Shown here in pieces: positions 1 through 27,334 of a DNA stretch of 27,438 bases. The first letter of the stretch is position 1. Every line of letters starts with the position of its first letter. The notes under the pieces are model-generated. The model searched no databases. It was not told where the DNA came from and saw only the letters and a program-made list of their open reading frames with translations. Origin of the DNA: a virus. The position numbers and the translations under genes were made by a program. Where the stretch lies: positions 1-27,438 of the IMG/VR virus record IMGVR_UViG_3300008120_008032. One strand, given 5' to 3'.

Positions 1-1055
1 GTGATTAATTTATGGCACTCAAAATGGCGAGGGGTATCTTCATGCTCAGGACACCAACGCCAATCACCTTTATTAAATCTAAACTTAGGGTCATTCCAAC
101 ATGAGTTACAAATTGACTCATCGTATATCCTCACTGTATTTATTGAAAACTCATGCTCTTTATTAGTGAAGTTTGATATTAAGTACACCTTTTTACGCAA
201 GGCATACGATAGCCATGATAATCCACTAGATAAGCCTATGAAAAACTCACTATGGTAAATCGTATTCATAGTGTTTTCCAAAGATTTGTCTACAAATGGA
301 GTTAATCCCTTAAGGTCGCTAGTTTTTTGATACATCATCTCATCTTCCTTAGAAATTTCTAGCACCTTATATCCTTTACCTATTAAGAAATCAATAACAT
401 CTTGCCAATAGTACCACAACTTGCATTGAGAAGTAGAGTATATAGAGATACACACATACTTTTCCTCTATGGGTCTTGTCTTGGGTACAAAATCAATTAT
501 GGGAACAATCTCCCTATGAGGAATATGCAATATGTTGGAAGCACTTTGTTGGAGTGGTATTAAAACTGGGTTTACAGGCTCTCTATTTTTATCCCAATAC
601 CAACCTATCTCGAACATACCAATAAGGTCGCTAACTACCTCACCTCTTTCTACGAACTCTAACTCTGGGTAACTATTCTTAAACAAGAAGTTTTTAAATG
701 TTGAAACTATCACTTTACACTCATAGTGTTTTGCAAATTCAAGGCAATAAGGAATCCAAGCAAGTGTATCACCTAGTGCTTTGCTCTCAAATGAAATAAA
801 AACCCTTTTGCCTTTTATCCTATCAAGGAAGTTGATTTGTTCAATCGTTCTACCCTCGTATCTAATTATGATGGAAATATCCGATAAATATTTTCTATCG
901 AGTCTTGCCCATCCTCCCTTTTTCATTTGTGTTTTAAAGAGAGTTTCCTTCGTTTGCCTATCTAAGAAAGATACTTCGTATTCCCTATTTTTTCCCTCAT
1001 CCCCAGTTAATTCAAAGTATAGACCCTTTACATGATGTAGGATATATGTTAACAT
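1..1055 (-). CDS. TibC/BAHT-like autotransporter-type protein O-heptosyltransferase (3' end cut by window edge)
   Basis: Reading the minus strand from ATG at 1055 gives 351 open codons that run off the left edge. The protein resembles the bacterial autotransporter heptosyltransferase family, which transfers heptose from ADP-heptose to Ser/Thr of beta-solenoid proteins. Family-like blocks are FESKALGDTLAWIPY (residues 89-103), an NPVLIPLQ stretch near 162-169, FFIGLSSGLSWLSYAL (271-286), and a cysteine region CNSCWNDP (316-323), WCPEH (334-338), FEC (345-347). Cys316, 319, 335 and 347 fit the iron-finger cysteines known from TibC; the spacing of the first three looks the same. The start overlaps the stop of the upstream GT4 gene by 7 nt, so it is the distal gene of the operon. 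Finding such an enzyme beside heptose-synthesis genes in a phage-like context is unusual. The family call is from recognisable motifs, not a search. Confidence 0.75.
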   Translation of the reverse strand, partial: MLTYILHHVKGLYFELTGDEGKNREYEVSFLDRQTKETLFKTQMKKGGWARLDRKYLSDISIIIRYEGRTIEQINFLDRIKGKRVFISFESKALGDTLAWIPYCLEFAKHYECKVIVSTFKNFLFKNSYPELEFVERGEVVSDLIGMFEIGWYWDKNREPVNPVLIPLQQSASNILHIPHREIVPIIDFVPKTRPIEEKYVCISIYSTSQCKLWYYWQDVIDFLIGKGYKVLEISKEDEMMYQKTSDLKGLTPFVDKSLENTMNTIYHSEFFIGLSSGLSWLSYALRKKVYLISNFTNKEHEFSINTVRIYDESICNSCWNDPKFRFNKGDWRWCPEHEDTPRHFECHKLI

Positions 1056-2080
1056 TTCTCTGTATTTGTATAAACATTTACATAGCGATTCTTAATCGTT
1101 TCGCTATCTAGATTATGAAATTTAGTTACTGCTTTGTACATATCGTTAAGCCTCTTTGAAACATTCATCCAATCATATTTCTCACGAACAAACATCATGC
1201 GATTTATAGTTTCATCATAACCATCAATAATCTCCTTAACCCTTGAAACGACCTCACTAGTAGTTATTTGATTTAATTTAAATAATCCTACTATTTCCAT
1301 AGAGCCATTGTAGGTAGCAGCCATAGGGATGCAACAACTAGCAGCCTCCATCAAGGTTAAATTTGGATGCCCTGCCTCAAGCATTGAAGGATGTAAGAAA
1401 ATAGTGTGGCTATGATATATCTTTAATAACTCATCTTCACTAGGGTTAGTAGCAACTAGATTTAATTTTTCATAGGATAACAAGTCCTTGTGTATATCAA
1501 AGAACTTTTGATTGGCATCAGTTCCCACTATGGTAATAGGCAAACCTAATTCCCTCGCTGCCTCTACACCAAACCTAAAGCCTTTTCTATCGAAGCCATA
1601 ATCCCCCGCCAATCCATTGTTTGCAACCATAAGCAACCTATGGTTAAGAGGTCTAGTTGTATTAGGTATGAAATATGAGGTATTGACCCCATGAGGTAGG
1701 TAAAAAAGTTTATCCGTTTCATCGAAGTAGTTTAATAAATGTTCAGCGTGAGTTATTGAGAAAATAGATTTTTTCATAGCATCAAGGTTATGCTTAAAGC
1801 AATAACTATCCTTACCATAGTGCTCAGTGTGATGGTCATGTAAAGAAAACACATAGGGTACTCCCTTCCTATGTAATTCTAAGGCTAGATTACCCATGTG
1901 TACATGAACAAAATCATATTGATTTGGCTCGACCTCGCTCAAAAACTTAATATCTACATCGTTACCAAATGTTTCTAGACAATTCCTATACTCTCTAGTA
2001 ATCTTTTCAACAGCACCCCATCCCATTTGACCAATAGGTTTAATAGGTATCATTCCTGTTGCTACTTGACATATTTTCAT
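1049..2080 (-). CDS. GT4-type glycosyltransferase (GT-B fold)
   Basis: This 343-aa protein looks like a family 4 retaining glycosyltransferase. The N-terminal half has the Rossmann-like start MKICQVATGM and a conserved-looking H-D-H-H segment at 81-84. The C-terminal half has PITIVGTDA (181-189) and the donor-binding region HPSMLEAGHPNLTLMEA (230-246), where two glutamates (235, 245) sit where the family's E-x7-E type motif is expected. There is no membrane segment, so a cytosolic enzyme is likely. The start ATG at 2080 overlaps the 901-aa gene's stop by 4 nt (ATGA), which indicates translational coupling. Donor and acceptor cannot be read from the sequence; the neighbouring heptosyltransferases suggest it extends a heptose-containing glycan. 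Confidence 0.8.
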   Translation of the reverse strand: MKICQVATGMIPIKPIGQMGWGAVEKITREYRNCLETFGNDVDIKFLSEVEPNQYDFVHVHMGNLALELHRKGVPYVFSLHDHHTEHYGKDSYCFKHNLDAMKKSIFSITHAEHLLNYFDETDKLFYLPHGVNTSYFIPNTTRPLNHRLLMVANNGLAGDYGFDRKGFRFGVEAARELGLPITIVGTDANQKFFDIHKDLLSYEKLNLVATNPSEDELLKIYHSHTIFLHPSMLEAGHPNLTLMEAASCCIPMAATYNGSMEIVGLFKLNQITTSEVVSRVKEIIDGYDETINRMMFVREKYDWMNVSKRLNDMYKAVTKFHNLDSETIKNRYVNVYTNTEKC

Positions 2081-4782
2081 AAGAACCTTTTATCTTGTTT
2101 ATCAATAAGAGAATATCCATTTACTTGAGAAGTAAGTCTTTGCTTGACAATACCCATCTTATAAGGACTATTCTTAAATATCAAGTTGAAATACATATCA
2201 CTTGCATCCCATTTTTCTTTTCTAAATTTCTCCTTGAGCCACTTTTCAACAAACTTGGGGAACATGATACATTGTAAACCTATAATGTGGTTAGTGATAA
2301 ATAATAGGTTTTGATTAGCGACCTCTTGAATCACAGGAGATTGTAACCATCCATGTTCTAATGTTCTAGTGTCACCAAAACTAAAGTAGCCTATATTATT
2401 ATCATCAATGATTCTACAAGCCTCAAAAACCTTATTGGCAAACTCATCAATAGGAACTTCTATAATGCAATCCCCTTCGCATACTATAAGAAAGTCACAA
2501 TCATTAAATTCACTCAACACTGCGTTTTTGAACGCTTCGTAGCATCCGTAGTGGGGTGGGGTGAGGGCTGTTCCGAGTTTATGTACAGTATTGTCATCAA
2601 AGAGTTCCATTGAAACGCATTGAGGTCGTTGACAGTTGAATTTTGGTGGTAAATCCTTATAGGGTTCGTTAGTGTGGAGGATGTACTCGATTCCGTGTTG
2701 CGTGACCCTTTGGAGCGATTCCCTACTCGCTTTTTCTCTCTCATCGTTTATCGTTGTCTGTATGTGAACTAATTTAACCTTTGGCTTTTTATTGACCCAT
2801 TTAAATGAGCCAGTTCCATTATAGGTGTTTAAGTTCTTTGAATTTAGTGAATATTTTTCATTTTTATATATTGAATCGCCATCAAAGAAATCAATCGATA
2901 TATCAATAGGCTTACCATTGTAGGTAAACTCCTTTCTAAACTCACGACTTTTGCTTATTTGGAAACTACCATTATAAAACTCACCCCCATCTTCCTTCAT
3001 AGTAACTTGCACCTTCCTATCATCTACATTGTAGGTATAGAAATAGAACATATATTGATTGGGGTGCTTATCTATTGGAACAATAGAGTAGTATTCACTA
3101 TTAGAGGCGACCCCCAAACCACTATTAACCAATAGTGTTTCTTGAGGGTTATCTATCAATACTACATCATTAATTCTAGTGTTTATTTTCTTAACTAGGT
3201 AATCCTCTAGGAAATTTTGAGCACCTATGTTATAACACACTCTATTATAATCATCACTTGTCCTTACATCATCAAATAGGTTCAAAAAGAAATCAACATC
3301 AAAGGTCATACCATTCGTTTGAATACCCCTACCAAAAGGTGTTTTCAAACTACCTAAATATGCAGTGTTTGATTGCTCTACACTTTGAAAAGATGCCTCA
3401 ATAGTAGGAGCATCTAATTCGTTTAGGATTACATCGTATGTAGTATAAAAGAAACGCTTGTAACCTAAATCCTTTGCAAACTTAGTTGCTGTAAATAGGT
3501 TTACTAGTACAGTTAGTGATTGGTTGCTATGCTTTAATCCATTTATATTTACATCAACATGGTATTCATTAGTATGGCGATAAAATCTAGTGTAATAAGA
3601 ATGGTGAGTCAAGGGATTATAAGCATCGAATATGTAGTAATCAACCATCCTTTGAATATCAGCATCCACAGGGTAGTGAGAGATGAGAACAATCTTCCTA
3701 CCTAAAATTTTTAAACTTTGTATAGTTTCTTTAGTTAGTTGAACTCTACTTTTTAGATTAGGGTATGTTCCAATTACTATGACCTCCTCCTTGTTTTGCT
3801 CTTTTTTAGGATTAGTGAGTTCAAGTATCATTTTTGCATCCTCATCCACATTACCAGTTAGGTAATTCATTCCTTCAATGCCATCATACCTATTCAAATA
3901 AACATCTAGGTTATACATCAACTTTGGTAAAGTAGGGTATTGTAAAGCCTCTTTAATTACAATAGGGTTTAATTCTTTATTACCCCTATCGCCTTTTGAT
4001 GGAAACAAAAATAGGTCTGCAGCCATCATGAAGTCGTTAATATCACTTCTCTCTCCCCACACTACACAATTATTTAGCCTTTCATTCTCCTCCTTCCAAT
4101 CCATCAATGGTTTCCAATATGATTGAAAGTTCTCTGCTTGATTACCCAAAAAATGAAACTTTAACTTATACTCATGTAATTTATCGCATAGTTCAAAAGC
4201 ATACTTTTGGTTCTTTCTAGGAGTAAATAAGCCTACTATCACTATGTGCTTATAATCATTTTGTAGACCCAATTTCTTTCTATACGCACCCTTATCTTGG
4301 GGTTTTATGTCTACTGGGTATTCTATTACTTCGTAAGGAACATTTAGGTGCAAGTACTTAAGGGCATTGTATGGACTAACAAATACAAATTTGTCAGGCA
4401 TATAAATCTTGCTCAATGGATTAAAACTACTATCATGCGTAGTTTCTATTATTGTATAAGGTCTATCGTTTCTATATACCCAATCGCTTAATTCATTACT
4501 CATGAACATCTCTGGGAACTCCTCCATAGATATAACATCAGGGGAGAAGGAGGTTACTATTTCTTGAAACTCACTCGTTTTATTTTCTCCTAGTGATTTG
4601 AATTTATCATTACCAACTAGTTCAATAATTTTATTCCTTTGAACTACAAACTTCCACGCAACGAATGAGTGCTCAACTACAAGAACATCAAATTCATTCT
4701 TTAGTAGTTCGACTTTATTGGCAGTTACTTGAGGAGCACCACCAGTACTTAAGTGAGGAGTTACTATTAAAAGTTTTTTCAT
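2077..4782 (-). CDS. 901-aa multidomain glycosyltransferase (GT-B domain plus GT-A-like C-terminal domain)
   Basis: This is the largest gene in the window. Residues 1 to about 330 form a GT4-like GT-B domain, with start MKKLLIVTPHLSTGGAPQ, a central HIVIVGLFTPRKNQ segment and DLFLFPSKGDRGNKELNPIVIKEA near the donor site. A middle part from about 333 begins with a second Rossmann-like strand (VIVIGTYPN) and contains FFYTTYDVIL, which looks like a nucleotide-sugar-binding strand. After a probable beta-rich linker, the C-terminal part has DFLIVCEGDC ending at residue 772, in which E-G-D could be the metal-binding DxD-like motif of a GT-A enzyme. It may therefore add two or three sugars in sequence. 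It overlaps both neighbours by 4 nt. The GT-B assignment is firm; the domains after residue 333 are inference. Confidence 0.75.
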   Translation of the reverse strand: MKKLLIVTPHLSTGGAPQVTANKVELLKNEFDVLVVEHSFVAWKFVVQRNKIIELVGNDKFKSLGENKTSEFQEIVTSFSPDVISMEEFPEMFMSNELSDWVYRNDRPYTIIETTHDSSFNPLSKIYMPDKFVFVSPYNALKYLHLNVPYEVIEYPVDIKPQDKGAYRKKLGLQNDYKHIVIVGLFTPRKNQKYAFELCDKLHEYKLKFHFLGNQAENFQSYWKPLMDWKEENERLNNCVVWGERSDINDFMMAADLFLFPSKGDRGNKELNPIVIKEALQYPTLPKLMYNLDVYLNRYDGIEGMNYLTGNVDEDAKMILELTNPKKEQNKEEVIVIGTYPNLKSRVQLTKETIQSLKILGRKIVLISHYPVDADIQRMVDYYIFDAYNPLTHHSYYTRFYRHTNEYHVDVNINGLKHSNQSLTVLVNLFTATKFAKDLGYKRFFYTTYDVILNELDAPTIEASFQSVEQSNTAYLGSLKTPFGRGIQTNGMTFDVDFFLNLFDDVRTSDDYNRVCYNIGAQNFLEDYLVKKINTRINDVVLIDNPQETLLVNSGLGVASNSEYYSIVPIDKHPNQYMFYFYTYNVDDRKVQVTMKEDGGEFYNGSFQISKSREFRKEFTYNGKPIDISIDFFDGDSIYKNEKYSLNSKNLNTYNGTGSFKWVNKKPKVKLVHIQTTINDEREKASRESLQRVTQHGIEYILHTNEPYKDLPPKFNCQRPQCVSMELFDDNTVHKLGTALTPPHYGCYEAFKNAVLSEFNDCDFLIVCEGDCIIEVPIDEFANKVFEACRIIDDNNIGYFSFGDTRTLEHGWLQSPVIQEVANQNLLFITNHIIGLQCIMFPKFVEKWLKEKFRKEKWDASDMYFNLIFKNSPYKMGIVKQRLTSQVNGYSLIDKQDKRFL

Positions 4783-5717
4783 ATCAAAGATTTAATGCTT
4801 TCAAAAACTTGTTCTACACTAGGGTGACATTCAAATGTTGGCTTGTTTTCTAAGCACTTAATAAGAGGAGCAACGCCTTGTATGTTTCCCCATTCTTTAA
4901 TACCATGCTTGGCATTAGACCCACACTCCAATCCACACCCCCCACGAACATATTTATACCTATAATCTTGAGAGCCATTTCTATAAGGAATACGAAACTC
5001 AGGCTTAATAGAAGAACCTAAATGAACTATTGGAGTTTCTGTCGTACCTGCTAAATGCAATAATCCACTATCCATAGTTATAAAACACCTAGCCTTATTA
5101 ATCAAATGCCAACATTGGCTTATAGAGGTCTTGTTCATTAGGTTTAACCCCTTCTCTATATGAAAGTTAAATACAGGCTTTTTTACATTAAAGAAACCAG
5201 TTTCACTTGAATCCTTCCCTATGGAGATAACATTTAAACCTATATCGTTTAACATTTGAGTCAAATTCATCCAATTAATTGATTGCCATGTTCTTGTCGC
5301 CCATGTGCTCACTGGATGAATTAACACATACTCTTTTGGGATTTCAATATTTAGTTCCTCTATGGGTCTATAATAACACTCCATCTCATCTTTAGCCAAC
5401 ATGAATCCTAAATGGATAGCATGGAATTGCCTTATATCAATCATGTTATGCTTGTACTCAATACCCCTTTCATTTTTCTTTCCTACATTATAAAATGAGT
5501 TATGTACTATGTAGTTTTGATTGAAATAACCCATGTCTACGCTACTAAATTTGTAACTAGCCTCCACATAAGGGTTCATCTTAAATACCTCTGCCATTCG
5601 AGAAATGATAGTTACCTTTCTCTCGTAGTAATCATGTAGTTTCTTTATTGTAGGAGTAGCACATATAAGGTCGCCTAACCCATTACAATCTTCTAAGTTT
5701 AATGCTATTGGCTTCAT
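4779..5717 (-). CDS. GT9 family ADP-heptose heptosyltransferase-like protein
   Basis: This 312-aa protein resembles glycosyltransferase family 9, the ADP-heptose:LPS heptosyltransferases. Visible family features are the N-terminal glycine-rich NGLGDLICATPTI (residues 12-24), YVLIHPVSTWATRTW (130-144) in the middle, and the donor-site block TMDSGLLHLAGTTETPIVHLG (around 214-234) with the D-S-G-x-x-H signature at 216-221. The C-terminal region contains a cysteine-rich patch, GGCGLECG near 260. The enzyme should use ADP-heptose, which the 24028-26925 genes appear to make. It is encoded in tight coupling with the sulfotransferase upstream (1-nt overlap) and the 901-aa glycosyltransferase downstream. 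The acceptor, LPS core or a viral protein, is unknown. Confidence 0.8.
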   Translation of the reverse strand: MKPIALNLEDCNGLGDLICATPTIKKLHDYYERKVTIISRMAEVFKMNPYVEASYKFSSVDMGYFNQNYIVHNSFYNVGKKNERGIEYKHNMIDIRQFHAIHLGFMLAKDEMECYYRPIEELNIEIPKEYVLIHPVSTWATRTWQSINWMNLTQMLNDIGLNVISIGKDSSETGFFNVKKPVFNFHIEKGLNLMNKTSISQCWHLINKARCFITMDSGLLHLAGTTETPIVHLGSSIKPEFRIPYRNGSQDYRYKYVRGGCGLECGSNAKHGIKEWGNIQGVAPLIKCLENKPTFECHPSVEQVFESIKSLI

Positions 5718-6535
5718 TAGTATCTAAAATAATCGTAAAACCATTTGTATCTATTAACGACCCATTCACACACACCTTTTCCTAATATATCTTGTGCATC
5801 GGATTGTTTCATCTCTAAAGAGTTTCTAATGATGTGGTCGCCATATCCCATATTTACAGCATCATTCTCATGTGTGATTTGAGGAATAAAATCAAAATTG
5901 TGTTGAAAGTAGGGTATCTCTAAGTAATTATAAATCCTAGCAATTTGTTGCTCTGGGTTTAAACAAAAATCTTCATATTTTACAAAAAGTATTTTATGGT
6001 CATCCTTAGATTGTATAATTGCTTCTAGTCGTTCTATTGCAATTCCTACTGGAATACCTTTTGCCCAAAAATCTATCCTTTTTGGTACGGTGTTATTCTT
6101 TAATTCATGCCACTCAATTAAAGTTTCTTTGTTGGGGTTTTTTCTAAAAGCCTTTTCCATGCTACAATAAACATCTCTTAAATCTCTAATCATACAAATC
6201 ATTTTAGGTTTGTATGCTAAGAAATGCTCGACCCATCTTATGTAAAAAGACCATGAACGCCCTTTATCTAAAAAGTATTTCTTATCGGTAAGCACATTCG
6301 CATAAGCGTGTATACCAGCATTGCATAGAGCAGAAAATGCTTTGTCGTGTAACTCAGGCGTAAGGCTAAATTTGTAATCATCTACATTAGTGAAATTATG
6401 TTTTGCACCATAAAGCAATTCCATTAATCCACTAGTGGGAGTAGCATAAATATCAGGGTTTTGACCCATAATATTTTGTAAAAGGGTTGACCCGCTTCTA
6501 GGAAGGCTAGATTGAAAAAATATCTTTTCTACCAT
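5717..6535 (-). CDS. Sulfotransferase family protein (PAPS-dependent)
   Basis: This 272-aa protein has the layout of PAPS-dependent sulfotransferases. The 5'-phosphosulfate-binding loop is SLPRSGSTLLQ at residues 10-20, directly after the first beta strand. The 3'-phosphate-binding strand and helix are MICMIRDLRDVYCSM at 112-126, with Arg117 and Ser125 in the expected places, and KILFVKYEDF lies further on. No membrane segment or signal is visible, so it is probably cytosolic. It sits among glycosyltransferases. The PAPS it needs could come from the APS kinase and ATP-sulfurylase-like genes transcribed divergently at 7491-8302. A sugar on the glycan built by this operon is the likely target, but a protein tyrosine or a lipid cannot be ruled out. 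Confidence 0.85.
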   Translation of the reverse strand: MVEKIFFQSSLPRSGSTLLQNIMGQNPDIYATPTSGLMELLYGAKHNFTNVDDYKFSLTPELHDKAFSALCNAGIHAYANVLTDKKYFLDKGRSWSFYIRWVEHFLAYKPKMICMIRDLRDVYCSMEKAFRKNPNKETLIEWHELKNNTVPKRIDFWAKGIPVGIAIERLEAIIQSKDDHKILFVKYEDFCLNPEQQIARIYNYLEIPYFQHNFDFIPQITHENDAVNMGYGDHIIRNSLEMKQSDAQDILGKGVCEWVVNRYKWFYDYFRY

Positions 6536-6536
6536 A

Positions 6537-7037
6537 TCAATAGTTTATATAATAACCATACTTATCATCCCCTACAAGTAGTTTCATCATAGGGTATCTT
6601 TCCAAAAATATCTCTGGCGTAAGGTCGGGTTGTAAATGTGTTTCGTGAACATTATCCATATAAGTACCTTGCTCATAGTTATAGGGAACAGCAATCAAAC
6701 AAAGAATATCTAGGTCTTGAATCCTCTTGATTACTTGTTGGGCATCCTTCACACTTAAATGCTCAAGTACATCACCCATGATTATGTAATCATAATCTCT
6801 AAAATCAAACTCACGAATATCTCCTAAAATAACTTTGTTATACTTACTATTTAAATCAAATTGTTCTATGTAGTTTGCAAATATTTCAATCGCATCCATA
6901 TTGGGAAAATGCTCCTTTAGTAAATGCGAGTATGTACCACAACCTGGACCAACATCCAAAATGCGAATACGCTTTACTAGATTCTTTAAGAAATGTTCTT
7001 TTACTTCCTCTTTGTAAAGGGTGTAACTATAAGGCAT
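6537..7037 (-). CDS. Class I SAM-dependent methyltransferase
   Basis: This 166-aa protein is a short class I methyltransferase. Motif I is IRILDVGPGCGTYSHLL (residues 24-40), the glycine-rich SAM loop. The acidic end of strand 2 is MDAIEIF, and the motif IV region is YDYIIMGDVLEHL, like many small-molecule and sugar methyltransferases. It is shorter than the usual 200-250 residues but keeps the core strands. It lies 1 nt upstream of the sulfotransferase gene and 3 nt downstream of the DUF6165 gene, inside the glycan-transfer operon. O-methylation of a sugar in the same glycan is the simplest role. The substrate cannot be read from the sequence. Confidence 0.8.
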   Translation of the reverse strand: MPYSYTLYKEEVKEHFLKNLVKRIRILDVGPGCGTYSHLLKEHFPNMDAIEIFANYIEQFDLNSKYNKVILGDIREFDFRDYDYIIMGDVLEHLSVKDAQQVIKRIQDLDILCLIAVPYNYEQGTYMDNVHETHLQPDLTPEIFLERYPMMKLLVGDDKYGYYINY

Positions 7038-7040
7038 AGG

Positions 7041-7424
7041 TTAGTATTTTTTATGTGACTTTTCCTCTACTATTGATGAACCATACTTCTCATTAATTTT
7101 TCTCTTAATCTTTGCTCTCAAATCATTTTTCTTATACACACTACGAGCAAGTTCAATGAAAGAGGAATCAAACTTTTTCTTTCTTTCACATTCTCTTTTA
7201 CCATCTTCTATGTGCCACAACTCCTCATTAACATTAGATAGTTCTTTGAAGTATTTTGTCTTATGGTAATTGGGGTCAATTTTCTTAGCAATCTTAACCA
7301 ACATAGTCCACTCCTTATGAATGTTGATATGTTTAGATGGCTCTTGGATATACTTTAACTTGTTCTCTAGTATAGAGATTTTGTCAAATAATTCACCTAT
7401 GGAAACAGGAATCCTAATATTCAT
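7041..7424 (-). CDS. DUF6165-like protein
   Basis: This 127-aa protein starts with IPVSIGELFDKISILENKLKYI, closely resembling the DUF6165 pattern (I-P-V-S-x-G-E-L-x-D-K-I-x-I-L-E-x-K). The family is often encoded in lipopolysaccharide or glycan gene clusters, and its function is unknown to me. The rest is helical and rich in Lys and Glu, with a conserved-looking LWHIED segment. It is the first gene of the minus-strand glycan operon, preceded by a promoter-like sequence in the 7425-7490 divergent region. The family call is by memory of the signature and is moderately safe; no biochemical role is proposed. Confidence 0.7.
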   Translation of the reverse strand: MNIRIPVSIGELFDKISILENKLKYIQEPSKHINIHKEWTMLVKIAKKIDPNYHKTKYFKELSNVNEELWHIEDGKRECERKKKFDSSFIELARSVYKKNDLRAKIKRKINEKYGSSIVEEKSHKKY

Positions 7425-7490: not shown

Positions 7491-7934
7491 ATGATAATTT
7501 GGCTTTTTGGACAACCTTGTAGTGGAAAAACTACAATCGCTCAAGTATTAAAAGACAAGAGAGAAATTATTGGGCGACCTCATTTGATAGATGGTGATGA
7601 GTTTAGGGAGATATTCCAAAACAAAAAGTATGGGAGAGAAGGTAGGATTGATAATATAAGAAAAGCAGTAATTGTTGCCAAATACATGGAGCATTGTGGA
7701 TTTACTGTAATTTGTTCTTTCGTTACCCCTTATAAAAGCATGAGGGATGAGATAAGAGAAATCTTAGGGGATGTTAGGATGATATACTTAGACTATCAAG
7801 GGGAGAGGGGTAGGGAAAACTACCATGTAGAGGATTTCGATATACCCTCCTCACAAGAGGAAAATTTCTTACATTTAAGAACTAGCGACCTTACGCTAGA
7901 TTCCTGTATTTCTAAAATTAAATCGATACTATGA
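7491..7934 (+). CDS. cysC: Adenylylsulfate (APS) kinase
   Basis: This 147-aa protein would phosphorylate APS at the 3' position to make PAPS, the universal sulfuryl donor. The P-loop is GQPCSGKTT (residues 7-15). LIDGDEFREIF corresponds to the CysC LDGDxxR block, GREGRIDNIRKAVIVAKYM to the REENIRRxxEVAK helix, and CSFVTPYKSMRDEIR to the SPxxxxR region. It is shorter than typical CysC (about 180-200 aa), with a trimmed C-terminus. The next gene starts 4 nt before its stop (ATGA). Together with the nucleotidyltransferase at 7931 and the sulfotransferase at 5717-6535, it completes a sulfate-to-sulfated-product route. Confidence 0.85.
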   Translation: MIIWLFGQPCSGKTTIAQVLKDKREIIGRPHLIDGDEFREIFQNKKYGREGRIDNIRKAVIVAKYMEHCGFTVICSFVTPYKSMRDEIREILGDVRMIYLDYQGERGRENYHVEDFDIPSSQEENFLHLRTSDLTLDSCISKIKSIL

Positions 7935-8302
7935 GTTTAAAGAAACACGCACTATTCATTGGGAGATGGCAAAACCTTCACGAAGGGCATTTATGGTGTT
8001 TTAACCAAAAATTAAAAGAGGGATTACCCATCATAATTGCTATTAGGGATGTAGAGGTCGATGAAAATAATCCAAGAACTGCTAAAGAGGTTAAATTTAT
8101 ACTAGACCTTCATTTTCAAGAACTTATAGAAATAGGAAAGGTAAAAATCATGATTATACCCGATATTGAAGGGGTATATTATGGTCGTTCTGTTGGATAT
8201 AAAGTGGAGGAGTTAGTACCACCTAAAGAAATAGCAGAGATTAGTGGAACTAAGATTAGACAACAACTTAAGGAACAAGAGGACAAAAAAACCAATATAT
8301 GA
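7931..8302 (+). CDS. Short HxGH-type nucleotidyltransferase, candidate ATP sulfurylase
   Basis: This 123-aa protein is a minimal nucleotidylyltransferase-fold enzyme. FIGRWQNLHEGH (residues 9-20) carries the HxGH motif at 17-20, and EISGTKIRQQL (103-113) resembles the ISGTxxR motif at the end of the catalytic domain of Sat-type ATP sulfurylases. It is far shorter than classical ATP sulfurylase (about 400 aa or more), so only the catalytic core is present. The position between APS kinase and DUF2061, with 4-nt overlaps on both sides, argues for APS synthesis. A cytidylyl- or pantetheine-phosphate-type activity would be the alternative. The fold is confident; the substrate is inferred from context. 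Confidence 0.7.
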   Translation: MSLKKHALFIGRWQNLHEGHLWCFNQKLKEGLPIIIAIRDVEVDENNPRTAKEVKFILDLHFQELIEIGKVKIMIIPDIEGVYYGRSVGYKVEELVPPKEIAEISGTKIRQQLKEQEDKKTNI

Positions 8303-8514
8303 TAGTTGAAAAAAAGAGGCACATAGCCAAAACTATAAGTTATAGGGTCATAAGTTCTGGCATTGGATTCATTGTTATGTATTTCGCCACAGGAAGTATA
8401 AAAGCAGGAGCAATATTCTCGATTGCTGAACTTGTCTATAAACCCCTTCAATACTATATCCATGAGCGAGTATGGTATAGGTATATAAAATTTGGATTAA
8501 AGAAAGAACAGTAA
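8299..8514 (+). CDS. DUF2061 two-helix membrane protein
   Basis: This 71-aa protein matches the DUF2061 pattern: an N-terminal KTISYRVISSGIGFIVMYFATG helix, then AGAIFSIAELVYKPLQYYIHERVW. The K-T-x-S-x-R and Y-x-H-E-R-x-W signatures are both visible. The family often occurs beside, or fused to, sulfate-activation enzymes. Two membrane helices are likely, with both ends basic. It starts 4 nt before the end of the nucleotidyltransferase gene, so it is the third gene of a coupled cassette. A role in sulfate entry or in anchoring the activation enzymes has been guessed for such proteins, but I do not know of proof. Confidence 0.8.
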   Translation: MIVEKKRHIAKTISYRVISSGIGFIVMYFATGSIKAGAIFSIAELVYKPLQYYIHERVWYRYIKFGLKKEQ

Positions 8515-17555: not shown

Positions 17556-18266
17556 TTAACTTAATTGCTTATATGTCAAACTATTTTTGTCAAAATATTG
17601 ATTTACAATTTCTCTATTCTCCTTTGTGTCTACATAGTAAATACAATCTGTCTTATAAGCAATAAAATCATCACCAAGTAACTTTTTAACCTTTGCCATG
17701 TGTTTGAAGCAAGTGAATCGAATCAACTTGTAAACTCTCTGCAAATCCACATCATCCCCAAAGGTTACTGTTGAATTACTAATTTTCCCACCATTTATTT
17801 GCCTAAATGTTCTACCCATACCTAGCGTAGAGAGAGAAGCGAGTCTTACATTCTTGAACTTCTTTGGCAATCCTCGTTTATAAGTAGCAAGGGTAATTAT
17901 TCCTATATTATAAGCAATACGCCAATACGCATGGTTTAAGTCTGTCGCACAAACCTTAACATTAGAATTAGGAACATCATCATTATACAATATCGACCTT
18001 TCTTCTCTAGGTAATTTTATAGTTGGGTTCTTTCTCAAAAAATCTTGAGCCTCCTTACGAACCTTACCAAATAAAAACAAACCTGCACGAAAAACTCCAT
18101 AATCTTTTTTACCTATCGATGGATAGATAAATGATTTGTTTCCCCAAATAATCTCTGTGCTAAAAGTACCACGCTTGATGTAGGCATCCTCTTTCAATTC
18201 GCCCAACATTTCTAGCATAGGTTTGTCGCTTCTACCAAAGCAGACTTTTCTAGTTTTAATTTTCAT
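17556..18266 (-). CDS. Minimal polymerase-palm-like protein (candidate family B-type DNA polymerase remnant)
   Basis: This 236-aa protein carries three motifs in the order and spacing of family B palm domains. CATDLNHAYWRIA has Asp109, like motif A D-x-x-S-L-Y-P. KNVRLASLSTLGMGR (138-152) looks like a motif B helix with Lys and Arg. DDFIAYKTDCIYYVDT (199-214) has Asp207, like motif C Y-x-D-T-D-S, here K-T-D-C. There is no room for an exonuclease or for full thumb and fingers, as family B enzymes are usually over 500 aa. The gene overlaps the basic 318-aa gene by 11 nt, a pairing that recalls terminal protein plus protein-primed polymerase. The assignment is by motif only and could be wrong. 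Confidence 0.5.
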   Translation of the reverse strand: MKIKTRKVCFGRSDKPMLEMLGELKEDAYIKRGTFSTEIIWGNKSFIYPSIGKKDYGVFRAGLFLFGKVRKEAQDFLRKNPTIKLPREERSILYNDDVPNSNVKVCATDLNHAYWRIAYNIGIITLATYKRGLPKKFKNVRLASLSTLGMGRTFRQINGGKISNSTVTFGDDVDLQRVYKLIRFTCFKHMAKVKKLLGDDFIAYKTDCIYYVDTKENREIVNQYFDKNSLTYKQLS

Positions 18267-19212
18267 TGAACTTATCGTAATTTTCTTTCAAACTAGCCAT
18301 AGCCTTATCATACTTTGCTTTTGATATAAGACCTTTGGATAGGTAATTATCTAATTTCTTTTTTGCTCTCTCGTAGTTCTTAGCGAAATCCTCAATAATC
18401 TTAAACTCGTTTCTAGGAGTAACTTTCTTATTTACAATCTTAGTAATCTTCTTATCATCCTTCTTGATTTGTCTAAATGCTCGACCTTTTGCCTCTTTCT
18501 CTTTTGTGAGTTTGCTTAAAATTTTGTCTAATTTATTATTAACCTTAGTAGCAGTTTTTTTTATGTTCTTAGTTTCTACCTCATCTTGTCCTTGATACCT
18601 AGTTATCTTGCCTAATGTTGATTGTGGTGTAGCCGTTCCTCTTTTTGGTTGTATATATAAAATTAAATCTAAGTAGTAACTATCAGCCTTGCCATCGTTT
18701 TTCATTTTGGGTCGTAGCATTTGTCTACCACTATAAAATGCACTACCACTTTCGTTGCCTACTTCTTTTCTTATGTTCTCTGTTATTTGCTGAACACCAT
18801 TAAAGTAATAGTTATAATTACGAGTATTAAAAATCTTGGTGCTACCAAATCTACCAGCATTAACCTTTACATAAATACAATCAGGTAATCGCCTTTGTAA
18901 GAACTCATCAATCTCAAACCACTCAATCTCTTGATATTGGCTTGGTGATATGTAGTTAAGGTTACAAAGGTTAGGGTCACGAGTAGGAATTAAGGCTATT
19001 TGCCCTTTGATGATTTCATCAATTTGCTTGACCCTTATTTTGGATTTTGGAGTAGTGGAGAGAGCAGGAAGGATTCCTTGTTTGATTAATTGCCTTCTCC
19101 TTTGAATCGACAGTTTTTGTTCCTCTGGCAACTTATTGTTAAGTGCCGTGAACTTTTTACTTACCTTTTGATATAGAGTAAGTTTTTTTGATGTCGATTT
19201 CTTTTTAGGCAT
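18256..19212 (-). CDS. Large basic protein paired with the palm-like gene
   Basis: This 318-aa protein is very rich in Lys (N-terminus MPKKKSTSKKLTLYQK). It has an N-terminal helical part, a central beta-containing part (about 95-205) with PDCIYVKVNAGRFGSTKIFN, SGSAFYSGRQMLRPK and YYLDLILYIQPKRG, and a long charged coiled-coil C-terminal third (KNIKKTATKVNNKLDKILSK onward) with KAKYDKAMASLKENYDKFNEN at the end. I do not recognise a family. Its size, basicity and 11-nt overlap with the palm-like gene make a terminal-protein or replication-initiation role worth testing. It is 1 nt downstream of the HTH gene. Confidence 0.6.
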   Translation of the reverse strand: MPKKKSTSKKLTLYQKVSKKFTALNNKLPEEQKLSIQRRRQLIKQGILPALSTTPKSKIRVKQIDEIIKGQIALIPTRDPNLCNLNYISPSQYQEIEWFEIDEFLQRRLPDCIYVKVNAGRFGSTKIFNTRNYNYYFNGVQQITENIRKEVGNESGSAFYSGRQMLRPKMKNDGKADSYYLDLILYIQPKRGTATPQSTLGKITRYQGQDEVETKNIKKTATKVNNKLDKILSKLTKEKEAKGRAFRQIKKDDKKITKIVNKKVTPRNEFKIIEDFAKNYERAKKKLDNYLSKGLISKAKYDKAMASLKENYDKFNEN

Positions 19213-20879: not shown

Positions 20880-20885
20880 AATTGG

Positions 20886-20914
20886 AGTGCTAAGTTATGC
20901 TAATTTATGATAAA
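20886..20914 (-). promoter_or_regulatory. 29-bp phased-repeat site, copy B
   Basis: On the minus strand TTATCAT, TTAGCAT and TTAGCAC start at 10-bp steps. The site ends 6 nt before the zinc-ribbon ATG. If it acted as a promoter, the transcript would be almost leaderless. It shares the TTAGCACT end with copies A and C. Confidence 0.6.
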
Positions 20915-21555: not shown

Positions 21556-21560
21556 TCAAT

Positions 21561-23028: not shown

Positions 23029-23366
23029 TGGCTTATAAATTTGACATTTCTCGTGGAGAGGAAGTTTTGCTTAAAATCGCTGCCATAAGCACTGCGCTAC
23101 TAGGATTAGCGGCAGTATATACATTTTATAGAAATAATGTTTGGGAGCCGAGAATTGAGGTAGTGAATGTTGACTATGAAAGAGGATTGGCAAATCTAAA
23201 AATTAATGGTACTCCCTTTTTACTAAAGGGCGACTCTACTTATCTCATCACCGCTGATTGGGGAATTAAATTTGGATTTACACCTACTAAAGATGGTAAG
23301 AGAATAAATGATAGAATCGAAATACTAAAAAGAGGAATGGTACAAAGAGTACTTGCACACGCATAA
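23028..23366 (+). CDS. N-terminally membrane-anchored protein of unknown function
   Basis: This 112-aa protein has a membrane helix at residues 13-31 (LLKIAAISTALLGLAAVYTFY) after a short charged start. A beta-rich domain follows: RIEVVNVDYERGLANLKINGTPFLLKGDSTYLITADWGIKFGFTPTKDG. This resembles a small immunoglobulin-like or OB-like fold. No active-site residues stand out. It shares one base with the lysozyme gene before it. It may bind wall material or another virion protein. I do not recognise a family. Confidence 0.65.
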   Translation: MAYKFDISRGEEVLLKIAAISTALLGLAAVYTFYRNNVWEPRIEVVNVDYERGLANLKINGTPFLLKGDSTYLITADWGIKFGFTPTKDGKRINDRIEILKRGMVQRVLAHA

Positions 23367-23375
23367 AATCATTTT

Positions 23376-24038
23376 ATGGATTTAAAAAAAGGTTTACTTG
23401 TATCTAGTGGCATAGCCGCTTTAATTGTTTTGGTGGTTATTGTTGCTAGGGGGCAAAGTAAAAAAGGTGGTAAGAGTTTAGACCCTAAAGTTGCAGACCC
23501 AGAGTTGAGTAAAAAATTCAACTTTCATTTAATACCCGATGGTAAGGGTAATTATCGCTCTGCACAATTTACAGCAAACGAATTACCACAAGTAATTAAG
23601 AAGTACAACATAAAAAGAATTATTCGCTTCAATGGTGATGGAAACGATAGCAAACATAGAAGTGCCTATCCTCAAACACCAATAAGCGAGGAGAAAAGAA
23701 TCGCTCAATCTCTAGGGGTTGAGCATCATTTTATGTCTAGCCACTCTGGTTATAAGAGGGGTCAAGGATATACTAAGAGTGTTGAAAACGCGGGTGCTAT
23801 TTTAGATAAGGGGAATACTCTAGTTCATTGTGCACATGGGGCAGATAGGACAGGAGGTATTGTTGGAGGCTATCTAAAAACAAGAGGTTATATGACCAAT
23901 CTTAATGAGTTATGGAATTACACGACTCAATACAATGGTTGGATGAGCATGATTCGTAATGGTAAGTTTTTTGGTAGTGGGTACGATAAATACGCAGACA
24001 CTTTTTATCCTATTGACCAACTAAAGGCTAAATACTAG
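23376..24038 (+). CDS. Membrane-anchored dual-specificity-type phosphatase
   Basis: This 220-aa protein has a membrane helix (about 6-24, LLVSSGIAALIVLVVIVA), a basic linker and a cysteine-dependent phosphatase domain. The signature HCAHGADRTG (151-160) gives Cys152 and Arg158, as in H-C-x5-R. YRSAQFTANEL (60-70) matches the Y-R-S-x-Q start of bacterial dual-specificity phosphatases. A plausible general acid is Asp89 or Asp92. It should hydrolyse phosphate monoesters on proteins or lipids at the membrane. This is rare in phage lysis-type operons. It ends overlapping the heptose-kinase gene on the other strand by 11 nt, with no visible terminator. Confidence 0.85.
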   Translation: MDLKKGLLVSSGIAALIVLVVIVARGQSKKGGKSLDPKVADPELSKKFNFHLIPDGKGNYRSAQFTANELPQVIKKYNIKRIIRFNGDGNDSKHRSAYPQTPISEEKRIAQSLGVEHHFMSSHSGYKRGQGYTKSVENAGAILDKGNTLVHCAHGADRTGGIVGGYLKTRGYMTNLNELWNYTTQYNGWMSMIRNGKFFGSGYDKYADTFYPIDQLKAKY

Positions 24039-24798
24039 CCACCCCCCTTTTTCTTACGACCTCTCCTGCTATTTGGTTGGCAAATTCTATTGCCATTACA
24101 ATATCCTTACTCGTAAGGTAATTTAAGGCTAGGGCACTTAAAAAGGTATCACCCGCCCCACTTACATCCATTGTAACCACCTTTTCCCCTTTAAAAACCT
24201 TTCCATTGTACTCGACCCCATCTCCACCCATTGTTACAATAATCTTTTGATTAAAGCCTCCCAAATCCTTCAAGATGTGATTGTGGGATTCAAACTCTAC
24301 CTTATTGAACTTAATGAAATCCACAAAGTACAAGGTATCTTCATATACCTTCTTTTTTGTGTCTAAAAAAACTACTGCATTTTTCTTTTTTGCCTTGCAA
24401 ATGTTTTGAATATCGCTAAAGGATATAAACCCCTTGTCATAGTCACTAATGATGATGCAATCAGCCTCACCAATAAGCCTATCAACACGATTTTCCTGTA
24501 AGTTTAGTTTATCACGGTTCTCTCCACTATCGACCCTAATAAAGTAGTGATTTGAGGCATCATCTACATACCTTGTTTTGGTAACATTGTTGGAACTTAA
24601 AATGCTATCCACTACAAAAGAGGGGTTGTACTTAGCAATTAACGATGATAGGTTATTGAACACATTACCGCCCATTCCTTCATTTTTGACCTCTCTCGTT
24701 GGGGTGAAAATGGGTATGGGTGCTTCAGGGGATAATCTATTAACCTTACCATAGATAAATATATCAATACACGAATCGCCTATAACTAGAAATTTCAT
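24028..24798 (-). CDS. rfaE1: RfaE1/HldE-type heptose-7-phosphate kinase (PfkB family)
   Basis: This 256-aa PfkB-family sugar kinase has the start VIGDSCIDIFIYGKVNRLSPEAPIP (residues 5-29), matching the RfaE1 D-x-x-x-D-x-x-x-x-G-x-x-x-R-x-S-P-E-A-P pattern. GMGGNVFNN (41-49) follows, then ISDYDKG (117-123). The ATP and catalytic block is VSGAGDTFLSALALNYL (212-228) with Asp217. In the ADP-heptose pathway it phosphorylates D-glycero-beta-D-manno-heptose 7-phosphate at C1. It is about 50 residues shorter than typical. The matching adenylyltransferase is encoded upstream at 25282-25692, so the usual HldE two-domain protein is split into two genes, as in many bacteria. The last gene of its operon. 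Confidence 0.8.
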   Translation of the reverse strand: MKFLVIGDSCIDIFIYGKVNRLSPEAPIPIFTPTREVKNEGMGGNVFNNLSSLIAKYNPSFVVDSILSSNNVTKTRYVDDASNHYFIRVDSGENRDKLNLQENRVDRLIGEADCIIISDYDKGFISFSDIQNICKAKKKNAVVFLDTKKKVYEDTLYFVDFIKFNKVEFESHNHILKDLGGFNQKIIVTMGGDGVEYNGKVFKGEKVVTMDVSGAGDTFLSALALNYLTSKDIVMAIEFANQIAGEVVRKRGVASI

Positions 24799-24800
24799 GC

Positions 24801-25091
24801 CTAATCTTTTTTATTGATAAGTAATGTTTGTTCTTTTCGTGAACTCTCAATAATAAGGTCGTAAACACTAGTTATTAAACTAATAGATATTCCATCCCTA
24901 TTTGCCCATTGGCTTACCCTATGTAGTATATCCCTCTTTCTATTCTCACACATCTCACTAATACCATGTTCTTTTTTAAGTTCTCCTACTTTGTTTGTTA
25001 ATGATATTCTTTGTCGAATAGATAAGTACAATGCTTCATCTATCAAATCAATAGACCCTCTTAGTTCTTCTAATTCCTCTTTGTAACTCAT
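24801..25091 (-). CDS. AroQ-class chorismate-mutase-like protein
   Basis: This 96-aa protein aligns without gaps, as I recall it, to the chorismate mutase domain of E. coli PheA. Arg11, Arg28, Lys39, Arg51, Ser84 and Gln88 of the active site all line up (LEELRGSIDLIDEAL, IRQRISLTNKVGELK, ENRKRDIL, LIIESSRKEQ). Two active-site acids differ: Asp48 becomes Cys and Glu52 becomes Lys. The enzyme would convert chorismate to prephenate, but why that should sit in a heptose operon is unclear. It may be active, altered in substrate, or a structural helix-bundle protein. It lies 2 nt upstream of the kinase gene and 0 nt downstream of the 62-aa gene. Confidence 0.8.
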   Translation of the reverse strand: MSYKEELEELRGSIDLIDEALYLSIRQRISLTNKVGELKKEHGISEMCENRKRDILHRVSQWANRDGISISLITSVYDLIIESSRKEQTLLINKKD

Positions 25092-25280
25092 TTAATTTTC
25101 TTTTTCCATTTCAAAAACTCTATACACAAATGAATCCCCTAAGTTATTTATTAAATGTTGGGGATAGCCATTTCTAACTAGCCATTTGTAAATATCTTTT
25201 ACATCGTCAGGCAACTCCTTTGGGAAACCATATAAATTCCCATGTGGAGGGTCTATCATCTTTACAATTTTCTTTTCCAT
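25092..25280 (-). CDS. Hypothetical protein
   Basis: This 62-aa protein has IDPPHGNLYGFPKELPDDVKDIYKWLVRNGYPQHLINNLGDSFVYRVFEME. The P-P-x-G-x-x-Y-G-F-P-K-E-x-P-D-D-V pattern is one I have seen in short phage hypothetical proteins with no known function. It has no metal motif or membrane helix. It lies between the adenylyltransferase and chorismate-mutase-like genes, both within 1 nt, so it is translated with the pathway. It could be a regulatory or binding subunit of one of these enzymes. Confidence 0.6.
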   Translation of the reverse strand: MEKKIVKMIDPPHGNLYGFPKELPDDVKDIYKWLVRNGYPQHLINNLGDSFVYRVFEMEKEN

Positions 25281-25281
25281 A

Positions 25282-25692
25282 TCAATCCATTACTACTGTT
25301 GATTGAATTTTAGATACTACATTGCTAGTTGACCAATTACCCATTCTAGGATAAAAAATCAACTCTTTAGCATATTGTCTACCTATTACTTCCTTATCAC
25401 GATACTCCTCACCAACAATCATGTAGTCAGGAGATAAATCCTCAATCAATTTCTCCAATTCTTTTTTACTATTGAAAATTTGTACATCCTTTACGAATAT
25501 CAAAGATGATAGTATAAGTTTCCTCTCATTTTGAGGGAATATGGGTCTAAAAGCACCTTTCATGGTTTTTATCCTTTTGTCACTATCGATACCCAAATAC
25601 ACATCCCCTAGAGAGTGAGCATGAACTAGTAATGCAATATGCCCTGCGTGTAAAACATCAAAGCAACCATTAACCCAAACCTTTTTATTCAT
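25282..25692 (-). CDS. rfaE2: RfaE2/HldE-type heptose-1-phosphate adenylyltransferase
   Basis: This 136-aa nucleotidyltransferase has VNGCFDVLHAGHIALL (residues 7-22) with the HxGH motif at 15-18. LGIDSDKRIKTMKG and the RPIFPQNERKLILSSLIFVKDV region follow, the usual R-P-x-x-P-x-x-x-R-x-x-x-L-x-x-L-x-x-V-x-x-V of RfaE2. DYMIVGEEY is close to the family's P-D-V-x-V-K-G-x-D/E-Y. It would make ADP-D-glycero-beta-D-manno-heptose from the 1-phosphate and ATP. The next gene upstream, the cupin, shares one base. It supplies the donor expected by the GT9 and TibC-like enzymes at 1-5717. Confidence 0.85.
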   Translation of the reverse strand: MNKKVWVNGCFDVLHAGHIALLVHAHSLGDVYLGIDSDKRIKTMKGAFRPIFPQNERKLILSSLIFVKDVQIFNSKKELEKLIEDLSPDYMIVGEEYRDKEVIGRQYAKELIFYPRMGNWSTSNVVSKIQSTVVMD

Positions 25693-26105
25693 TAGTTTCC
25701 TTTTTCAATTCTATAACTATCACTATCATAATGTGGGGTCGAAACCTCCATAATCTCACTATCCTCATAGGCTAGTAGTTGGTGTGGGCAACCTTGAGGT
25801 ACAACCACGCAATCTCCTACATTTAAATCAACCCCATGCCATTTACCCACTTTGGGGTCAATCCACACAAGAGATAATTTACCCTTAAGAACATACCATG
25901 TTTCATGTTTCTCTATATGATAGTGTAGAGAGAACTTCTTGCCCTCATTAATCACTAAAATCTTCCCACAATAAGATTCTCCATTGTAGATAATCTTCTC
26001 ATGACCCCATCCCTTTTTAACAATCTCTGGTTTTCTTAAACGAATAACTACATCTCTTTCCTCTTTCCCTGTAATAATGTCGTAAAGATTTGTTTGTTCT
26101 AGCAT
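25692..26105 (-). CDS. Cupin, sugar-phosphate isomerase-like
   Basis: This 137-aa protein has both cupin motifs. Motif 1 is the G-x5-H-x-H-x4-E-x6-G pattern at 55-75 (His61, His63, Glu68), and motif 2 is the G-x5-P-x-G-x2-H pattern at 97-108 (His108). These would bind one metal ion. The start and overall length resemble the C-terminal domain of type II mannose-6-phosphate isomerase. GWGHEKIIYNG (32-42) also fits. It could isomerise or epimerise a sugar phosphate, perhaps in place of the missing GmhA or GmhB, but that is only a guess. It lies 7 nt downstream of the epimerase gene and shares one base with rfaE2. Confidence 0.75.
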   Translation of the reverse strand: MLEQTNLYDIITGKEERDVVIRLRKPEIVKKGWGHEKIIYNGESYCGKILVINEGKKFSLHYHIEKHETWYVLKGKLSLVWIDPKVGKWHGVDLNVGDCVVVPQGCPHQLLAYEDSEIMEVSTPHYDSDSYRIEKGN

Positions 26106-26112
26106 AGTTTAT

Positions 26113-26925
26113 TTATTTTTTATTAAGATAATCCAAGTATTTATTTAACCCTTCCTTCAAATTATACTTTGCTCTCCAATTAGTCATAAATCTACTCTCA
26201 CTTGCCCTAGTATAGAATTGATAGTTTTTAGGTAGTACGAAATCATCACCATAGTAATCCCATTGAATACCCATAATTTCCAAACCCTCCTCAAAAGGTC
26301 TAGCCTCTCCTGTTCCCACATCAAATGTTTTACCTTTAAAAAATGGGTAGAAATCCCAAGCATATAAATTTGCATCAACCACATCATCTATGTAAATGAA
26401 ATCCCTCATAGGATTCATTTTGATTAATTTAGGTATGACCCCATCTTTGTTCTTTACATAGGATTGATAGAACATAGAAGCCATTTTACCCTTGTGTTCC
26501 TCTCCTGGACCATAAACATTGAAATACCTTAACGATACACCATTACACATAGTAACTAGAGATTCCCCAGCATACTTACTCCAAGCATACAAGTTCATTC
26601 CCAAACCACCTCCATAAATCGCTGCACTAGAGGAGTAAATAATTGGTATATCATAGGCTTGACACCATAGAGTTAATCCATAGGTGAAATCGAAATTTCT
26701 CGACATCATGTGAGAAATATCTTGCTCTAGTGTATCACTACAAGCACCTACATGAAAAATACAAGAAGGGCGAATTTCAGTTAATAACTCATCTAACTTA
26801 TCCCTCCAATCAACATCATCAAAAATAGATTCATCAATACCAAATACATTGTGCCTTCTCTCCTCTAATACTCTTTTTAAGTTTGACCCAATAAAACCAT
26901 TGTGTCCTGTTACTAATACATTCAT
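26113..26925 (-). CDS. hldD: HldD-like ADP-glyceromanno-heptose 6-epimerase (NAD-dependent epimerase family)
   Basis: This 270-aa protein begins MNVLVTGHNGFIGSNL, with the dinucleotide-binding G-x-x-G-x-x-G at 7-13. Tyr113 and Lys117 (YAWSK) form the catalytic pair, with SSSAA at 98-102. SLRYFNVYGPGEEHKGKMASMFYQ (131-154) closely follows the HldD signature R-Y-F-N-V-Y-G-P-x-E-x-H-K-G-x-M-A-S. PMRDFIYIDDVVDANL matches the later R-D-F-x-Y-x-x-D-V. It would convert ADP-D,D-heptose to ADP-L,D-heptose. The open frame continues upstream to 26985, but a start at 26925 fits the domain and an ATGA overlap with a 35-aa gene. It is slightly shorter than bacterial HldD. Confidence 0.85.
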   Translation of the reverse strand: MNVLVTGHNGFIGSNLKRVLEERRHNVFGIDESIFDDVDWRDKLDELLTEIRPSCIFHVGACSDTLEQDISHMMSRNFDFTYGLTLWCQAYDIPIIYSSSAAIYGGGLGMNLYAWSKYAGESLVTMCNGVSLRYFNVYGPGEEHKGKMASMFYQSYVKNKDGVIPKLIKMNPMRDFIYIDDVVDANLYAWDFYPFFKGKTFDVGTGEARPFEEGLEIMGIQWDYYGDDFVLPKNYQFYTRASESRFMTNWRAKYNLKEGLNKYLDYLNKK

Positions 26926-27029
26926 TTTTGAATTAAATGATAAAGTCCGTATAAAAAAATAATTGCTACAACTATGAAAATACATCCACTATCGTTTTCC
27001 CCATCGTAGGGAGGCTCATTGAATTTCAT
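26922..27029 (-). CDS. 35-aa single-pass membrane microprotein
   Basis: ATG at 27029 opens 35 codons (MKFNEPPYDGENDSGCIFIV then VAIIFLYGLYHLIQK). It has a hydrophilic start and one membrane helix at about 17-32. It overlaps both neighbours with ATGA: the 102-aa gene's stop upstream and the epimerase start downstream. The two 4-nt overlaps support a genuine translated gene in a chain. The function is unknown. As in the other operons here, a tiny membrane protein sits next to enzymes. Confidence 0.6.
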   Translation of the reverse strand: MKFNEPPYDGENDSGCIFIVVAIIFLYGLYHLIQK

Positions 27030-27334
27030 AAATTATAAATATAAGTGAAACAAGGAATGACATTTGTAAATTTCCTCCTATTCAATTCAGGCAACCACCA
27101 TCTCCATCTCCTTATAGCAACTAGAGGAGAATAGCAAGGTCTATTATCATGCTTAACAACATCATCTTGCAAGTGAATATGCTCTTGGATATACCCATCA
27201 CGATTGTAATAATACTTTTCATCTCTTGTCAAAGAAGCACAACGAACCCTATCATTGAGCACTCGACAATAAGAAAATCTATTCAACTTATAGTTGACCC
27301 TAGCAAGTCTTTTATCTCTCATTCCAGTGAACAT
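27026..27334 (-). CDS. Hypothetical basic protein, first gene of the heptose operon
   Basis: This 102-aa protein is basic and rich in Arg, Tyr and Asn: MFTGMRDKRLARVNYKLN, then VRCASLTRDEKYYYNRDGYIQEHIHL, and LVAIRRWRWWLPELNRRKF. No family is recognised. The ATG abuts copy A of the phased-repeat site, and its stop overlaps the 35-aa gene by ATGA. A nearby ATG (codon 5) could be used instead if the transcript is nearly leaderless. The tight coupling to the heptose genes is the main reason to accept it as real. Confidence 0.6.
   Translation of the reverse strand: MFTGMRDKRLARVNYKLNRFSYCRVLNDRVRCASLTRDEKYYYNRDGYIQEHIHLQDDVVKHDNRPCYSPLVAIRRWRWWLPELNRRKFTNVIPCFTYIYNL

Follow-up and report, generated by a model that had tools for sequence, protein, structure and literature searches.

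A virus contig with a heptose-synthesis-like cassette and a predicted TibC/Aah-type heptosyltransferase: a proposed two-part system for virion glycosylation

Genes resembling those for making an activated heptose and genes resembling those for transferring it lie near opposite ends of one viral sequence. This raises the question of whether the two sets serve a single purpose in the virus and, if so, what they glycosylate. The window analysed here is an entire IMG/VR record, IMGVR_UViG_3300008120_008032 (27,438 bases), which is classed as a virus record and is probably a fragment of a larger genome. The initial annotation had placed RfaE1-, RfaE2- and HldD-like enzymes at 24028-26925, a GT9 heptosyltransferase at 4779-5717 and a TibC-like enzyme at the left end. 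All of these were found where they had been placed: the three synthesis enzymes matched TIGR02198, TIGR02199 and TIGR02197 far above chance, and the GT9 and TibC-like enzymes both exceeded the cut-offs of their profiles (Table 1). The gene calls were right, but the cupin, the chorismate mutase and the 62-aa ORF of the same operon had been missed.

Table 1. Predicted genes of the glycosylation block (3-7424) and of the heptose-synthesis operon (24028-26925)
Feature	Positions	Strand	Evidence
TibC/Aah-type O-heptosyltransferase (BAHT), cut by contig edge	3..1055	-	TIGR04414 4e-73, 246.5 bits
GT4-type glycosyltransferase	1049..2080	-	PF13692 4e-5, below cut-off; 53-54% to G001/G002
901-aa glycosyltransferase, GT4 domain	2077..4782	-	PF00534 7e-9; 71% to G002
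GT9 heptosyltransferase-like enzyme	4779..5717	-	PF01075 1.7e-16, 60.8 bits, cut-off 22; 72% to G001, G002
Sulfotransferase	5717..6535	-	PF13469 4e-17, PF00685 1.5e-15
SAM-dependent methyltransferase	6537..7037	-	PF13649 7e-8
DUF6165 protein	7041..7424	-	PF19662 9e-12
Short D,D-heptose-7-phosphate kinase-like (RfaE1/HldA type)	24028..24798	-	TIGR02198 7.9e-36, 124 bits
Chorismate mutase, type II	24801..25091	-	PF01817 1.2e-15
62-aa ORF	25092..25280	-	open frame fitting between neighbours; no Pfam match
RfaE2/HldC-like nucleotidyltransferase	25282..25692	-	TIGR02199 2.8e-27, 95 bits
Cupin, candidate sugar or sugar-phosphate isomerase	25692..26105	-	PF01050/PF07883
Short HldD-like ADP-heptose 6-epimerase	26113..26925	-	TIGR02197 1.5e-49, 169 bits; PDB HldD 1e-28

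The synthesis cassette is a tight operon of six minus-strand genes, with intergenic gaps of 7, -1, 1, 0 and 2 bases. Read from 26925, it encodes the epimerase, the cupin, the nucleotidyltransferase, the 62-aa ORF, the chorismate mutase and the kinase; 26925 is the likely start of the epimerase gene, for which the mechanical ORF start is 26985. Because the kinase, the nucleotidyltransferase and the epimerase score below the curated equivalog cut-offs (345, 181.5 and 274.6 bits for TIGR02198, TIGR02199 and TIGR02197, respectively), their exact reactions are predictions. TIGR02198 is nevertheless the best family for the kinase by far. The AF2 model of the kinase (pLDDT 93.4) gave B. cenocepacia HldA for all of its seven best PDB fold matches, the best at 1e-18, and the RLSPEAPxP, SDYxKG and GAGD motifs are present. 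The enzyme falls about 45 residues short of the HldA-type length, and in a tree the short-kinase clade split from the full-length kinases with a support of 100. The epimerase is about 40 aa shorter than bacterial HldD and conserves Ser116, Tyr140, Lys144 and Lys178 together with the 'HKGKMAS' motif. The nucleotidyltransferase scored 95 bits against the RfaE2 profile compared to 46 bits against the glycerol-3-phosphate cytidylyltransferase profile. It does not have the Lys of the HldE2 'VKGGDY' motif and carries an Arg in 'PRxGxxST', like glycerol-3-phosphate cytidylyltransferase (TagD reference). These motifs were considered as proof of CTP use and rejected as not discriminating, because the Lys/Arg swap may only shift a phosphate contact.

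Set against the bacterial pathway (GmhA, HldE, GmhB and HldD), the window has equivalents of the kinase, adenylyltransferase and epimerase with their key motifs. It differs in that the kinase and transferase are unfused, the kinase and epimerase are shorter and there is no GmhA or GmhB. As had been noted initially, the GmhA and GmhB models have no match in the record, probably a fragment; supplying the first intermediate would therefore fall to the host or to some non-homologous enzyme, the cupin for instance. Fold matches to the AF2 model of the cupin (pLDDT 91.9) were to various cupins, phosphomannose and D-lyxose isomerases among them. The cupin was not retained as the GmhA replacement, since the fold search gave general cupins in which the isomerases were present but not top-ranked. 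The type II chorismate mutase had one weak match only among 50,697 phage records. By eye, most of its active-site residues seem to be kept, with a Cys at the position of E. coli Asp48.

The enzyme at the left end is predicted to be a TibC/Aah-type O-heptosyltransferase (BAHT). It exceeds the curated TIGR04414 equivalog cut-off of 200 bits and aligns with the solved TibC structure in the PDB over nearly its full length (2e-45). Equivalents of Asp110, Thr226, Lys230 and Trp305, that is, the catalytic Asp and three of the four donor residues, are conserved, and all four iron-finger Cys (339, 342, 358 and 370) align with the same spacing (numbering and roles from Yao et al. 2014, PMC4358343). The window enzyme has in common with the TibC/Aah family the equivalog profile, the catalytic Asp, the phosphate-binding Thr/Lys, the Trp and the four Cys. 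It departs from the family at Arg286, which is required in TibC and contacts adenine (Yao et al. 2014, PMC4358343). This residue is a Thr in the BAHTs of the window and of two related loci, L001 and L002, and was kept in two (L014 and L151) of the seven other viral BAHTs aligned. Pro300 is replaced by Ser, the state found in Aah; with Ser at this stereoselectivity position, D,D- and L,D-heptose donors are both accepted (PMC4358343). A further difference from the family is that related viruses do not have the autotransporter target repeat.

On the minus strand from 7424 to 3, the BAHT gene closes a block that encodes the DUF6165 protein, the methyltransferase, the sulfotransferase, the GT9 enzyme, the 901-aa glycosyltransferase, the GT4-type enzyme and the BAHT. 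The window has this block in common with the related contigs G001 and G002, and the arrangement DUF6165-(sulfotransferase)-GT9-901-aa glycosyltransferase-GT4-BAHT is repeated in the nearest viral BAHT relatives. Among 80 viral BAHT loci, the 901-aa glycosyltransferase was found in 45 and DUF6165, a constant member of the block, in 37. BAHT relatives are encoded in at least 589 viral stretches, and a cultured phage, Microcystis phage Mel-JY01, carries a BAHT. Judged by such matches, BAHTs are common in viruses and the block is not unique to the window. Beside the sulfotransferase gene, APS-kinase-like, NMN-adenylyltransferase-like (HxGH...ISGTKIR) and DUF2061 genes stand in a row at 7491-8514 on the plus strand; the same row occurs in G002 and in other BAHT loci, and it is possibly a minimal PAPS supply for sulfation.

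The initial annotation had suggested that the two gene sets could lie close together if the ends of the sequence were joined. This was rejected: the ends have no repeat in common, and the BAHT frame, carried over a virtual end-join, meets a stop after four residues without giving a BAHT tail. Following the BAHT gene, L001 and L002 have a 2OG-oxygenase-like gene or a carbamoyltransferase gene, not the heptose cassette. The contig breaks off within the window's BAHT gene, so the window's own acceptor and the neighbour beyond base 1 lie out of view. The closest relative of the window, G002, has replication genes in common with it besides the glycosylation block. Two neighbouring genes at 17556-19212 on the minus strand are conserved in G002 and have no Pfam function; the first shows, by eye, polymerase-like 'DLNxAY' and 'KTDC' motifs. 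Terminase_6N was absent from all 19 records closest to the window by BAHT, a set that includes the window, G001 and G002. An ATPase-like protein of G001 (L004:14640-15461), without a clear Pfam or PDB match, is common to G071, G072, G074, G077 and G082. Many small membrane-anchored proteins were seen among G000-G002 and G071-G088. With these features, the records may represent a group of non-tailed viruses.

The likely acceptor was sought in related loci. A long Gly-Thr/Ser-x repeat protein is encoded in 61 of the 80 viral BAHT loci (L189-L268; L001 is among those showing the linkage). After BAHTs were collapsed at 90% identity, a Gly-Ser/Thr repeat ORF remained in 36 of 47 loci, and 31 of the 37 distinct loci with at least 4 kb of downstream sequence carry the repeat gene. 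In nearly all cases it runs convergently to the BAHT gene, 0.3-6 kb downstream of it. Control loci picked by the kinase had the repeat gene in 2 of 70 cases (Fisher p ~5e-18, a rough value because viruses share ancestry). All three repeat proteins tested matched Pfam Collagen, and one exceeded the cut-off for Peptidase_S74. In two long records, G101 and G105, the repeat matches are all confined to a single cluster, 1-7 kb away from the BAHT gene; in a third, some matches also lie away from it. The AIDA-type autotransporter target repeat (TIGR04415) was found in 0 of 48 BAHT-bearing viral records, a set to which the window does not belong; such a repeat is what the enzyme modifies and forms no part of it. 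In place of the Gly-Ser/Thr fibre, G002 encodes a poly-Thr, mucin-like (TTTTTTAAP) protein (L007:14637-16670), the N-terminus of which resembles the window at 13030-13704. Collectively, these results suggest that the BAHT target in the relatives is the virus's own Ser/Thr-rich fibres. The genomic linkage of viral BAHTs to collagen-like fibre genes is new here; our literature search found no paper describing BAHTs of viruses or phage fibres that carry heptose.

The synthesis cassette has its own distribution. Single-sequence scans of the viral collection with the window's HldD-like epimerase and kinase returned no close relatives, and alignments were therefore needed. A short-kinase profile had at least 559 matching stretches in the viral collection and also matched MAG contigs including those of CPR bacteria. 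In 80 viral loci, genes no more than 4 kb from the kinase were listed; we found RfaE2-like genes in 41, epimerase-like genes in 38 (part of which are distant enzymes without Lys178), cupins in 37 and small HAD genes in 29. By these profile matches, kinases of the short clade are common among aquatic viruses, and the window is not alone in having the cassette. Homologous cassette genes are clustered in the cyanophages P-SSM2, S-SM2 and P-TIM68 and in the marine virus AG-345-O18, and heptose genes were already known in a cyanophage, where they were termed LPS-related (PMC7378029). The cyanophage cassette (P-SSM2 PSSM2_309-313; S-SM2; P-TIM68; SynMITS9220M01, PMC7378029) unites genes for a short kinase, an RfaE2-like enzyme, a cupin and an epimerase, as in the window, with identities of 36-42%, 43-45%, 43-48% and 29-32%, respectively; the window epimerase is nearer the forms in L020 and L050 (44-47%). 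GmhA is absent from the cyanophage cassette too. Unlike that cassette, the window's has a chorismate mutase and the 62-aa ORF, does not have the small HAD and dehydrogenase/TPP genes, and is accompanied by a BAHT. No GmhA exceeded the cut-off in 53 records, three complete cyanophage genomes included (one weak 19-bit match), and no GmhB did so in 12 records (one 59-bit match, in AG-345-O18). The cyanophage gene annotated 'phosphoheptose isomerase' (L011:9719-10063, L009:11272-11610) encodes a small HAD-like protein that HAD capsule phosphatase models match weakly, and this annotation is likely a misannotation. In Kaiserbacteria, Yonathbacteria and Parcubacteria (L019, L021, L026 and L039), the short heptose kinase adjoins zinc dehydrogenase and TPP-enzyme genes.

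The analysis shows what the genes are, that catalytic residues are conserved, how the operon is built and which genes are linked in relatives. On this basis we favour, with some confidence, a two-part system for virion glycosylation, with the virus supplementing the sugar donor itself. The host, or a route via the cupin, would supply the starting sugar phosphate. The short kinase would phosphorylate heptose-7-phosphate at C1, and the RfaE2-like enzyme would then add a nucleotide, probably AMP. A phosphatase of the host, or a small HAD enzyme such as related cassettes encode, would take off the C7 phosphate, and the HldD-like enzyme would invert C6 and finish the activated heptose. The 3-7424 block would use such donors, the BAHT placing heptose on protein Ser/Thr and the GT9, GT4 and 901-aa glycosyltransferases, the sulfotransferase and the methyltransferase lengthening and decorating it. 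In relatives, the likely acceptor would be a Ser/Thr-rich virion fibre, either collagen-like (Gly-Ser/Thr-x) or poly-Thr. We infer the activities, the nucleotide, the acceptor and a purpose in host recognition or virion shielding.

The replacement of Arg286 by Thr counts against ADP as the nucleotide in this scheme. It is one reason to consider that the cassette yields a different NDP-sugar, such as one linked to CDP or GDP or a heptose in modified form, and that the donor of the viral BAHTs changed accordingly. L001 and L002 share the replacement with the window, and the position is non-Arg in most of the viral BAHTs checked. The cytidylyltransferase-like Arg in place of the 'VKGGDY' Lys is consistent with the same idea, as are the E1-like TPP and zinc dehydrogenase genes added to the cassettes of other viruses. 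However, the RfaE2 profile score is twice that of the cytidylyltransferase profile, Lys178 and 'HKGKMAS' are kept in the epimerase, and the nearest fold of the kinase is HldA. We consider a different NDP-sugar unlikely, if worth keeping in view.

It is also rather improbable that the two halves are unrelated cargo. In that reading, the cassette's sugar nucleotide would serve to remodel the host surface (LPS or capsule) or to exclude superinfection, and the BAHT block would draw on host ADP-heptose. A host-surface role is the usual proposal for cyanophage LPS genes. The short kinase was found in 0 of the 46 other records of the window's BAHT clade, in a search run without a separate positive control, although the same profile matched elsewhere. 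Both halves together are thus rare in that clade, and since they are usually separate, the pairing in the window may be coincidental. In addition, three complete cyanophage genomes have the cassette without a BAHT, and in a cyanophage it has been described as LPS-related (PMC7378029). Against separate functions, a BAHT exceeds the cut-off in 6 of the 46 other kinase-bearing contigs, and in three divergent phages the genes share one run. There (L150, L160 and L171), a large protein, one or more small ORFs, a glycosyltransferase, the BAHT, the RfaE2-like enzyme and the short kinase are encoded in that order by adjacent or overlapping genes, and the BAHTs are 68-71% identical. The large ORF upstream in L150 encodes 1933 aa, is Thr/Ser-rich and appears, by eye, fibre-like with an S74-type chaperone-like C-terminal tail; its record, G032, carries a terminase and is therefore a tailed phage. 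These runs are the best independent evidence that the cassette product may feed the BAHT as donor.

ADP-heptose is a ligand of ALPK1, and this established fact is the sole support for the initial suggestion that the virus raises host ADP-heptose and signals through ALPK1 in an animal; nothing points to an animal host, and the relatives with names comprise cyanophages, one Microcystis phage and MAG contigs, most of them from aquatic or groundwater sources. With a genomic link in relatives to virion fibre genes, and genes already accounted for by glycosylation, ALPK1 signalling is without support here and highly improbable.

Beyond the two-part system favoured for the window, we propose tentatively, at a little under even chances, that the BAHTs of viruses make up a large family, apparently not described before, which O-glycosylates collagen-like, Ser/Thr-rich virion fibres with heptose, and that a subset of viruses, including that of the window, acquired donor synthesis of their own, in which the heptose kinase is miniaturised. 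Protein-bound heptose is known from a few bacterial adhesins, and the sugar genes of aquatic phages are often filed as LPS or auxiliary metabolism. Should it prove true of many aquatic viruses that they heptosylate their own fibres, and of some that they also make the sugar, a bacterial adhesin enzyme would have become a virion-modifying enzyme, and the role of the sugar genes common in aquatic phages would be testable through a specific acceptor.
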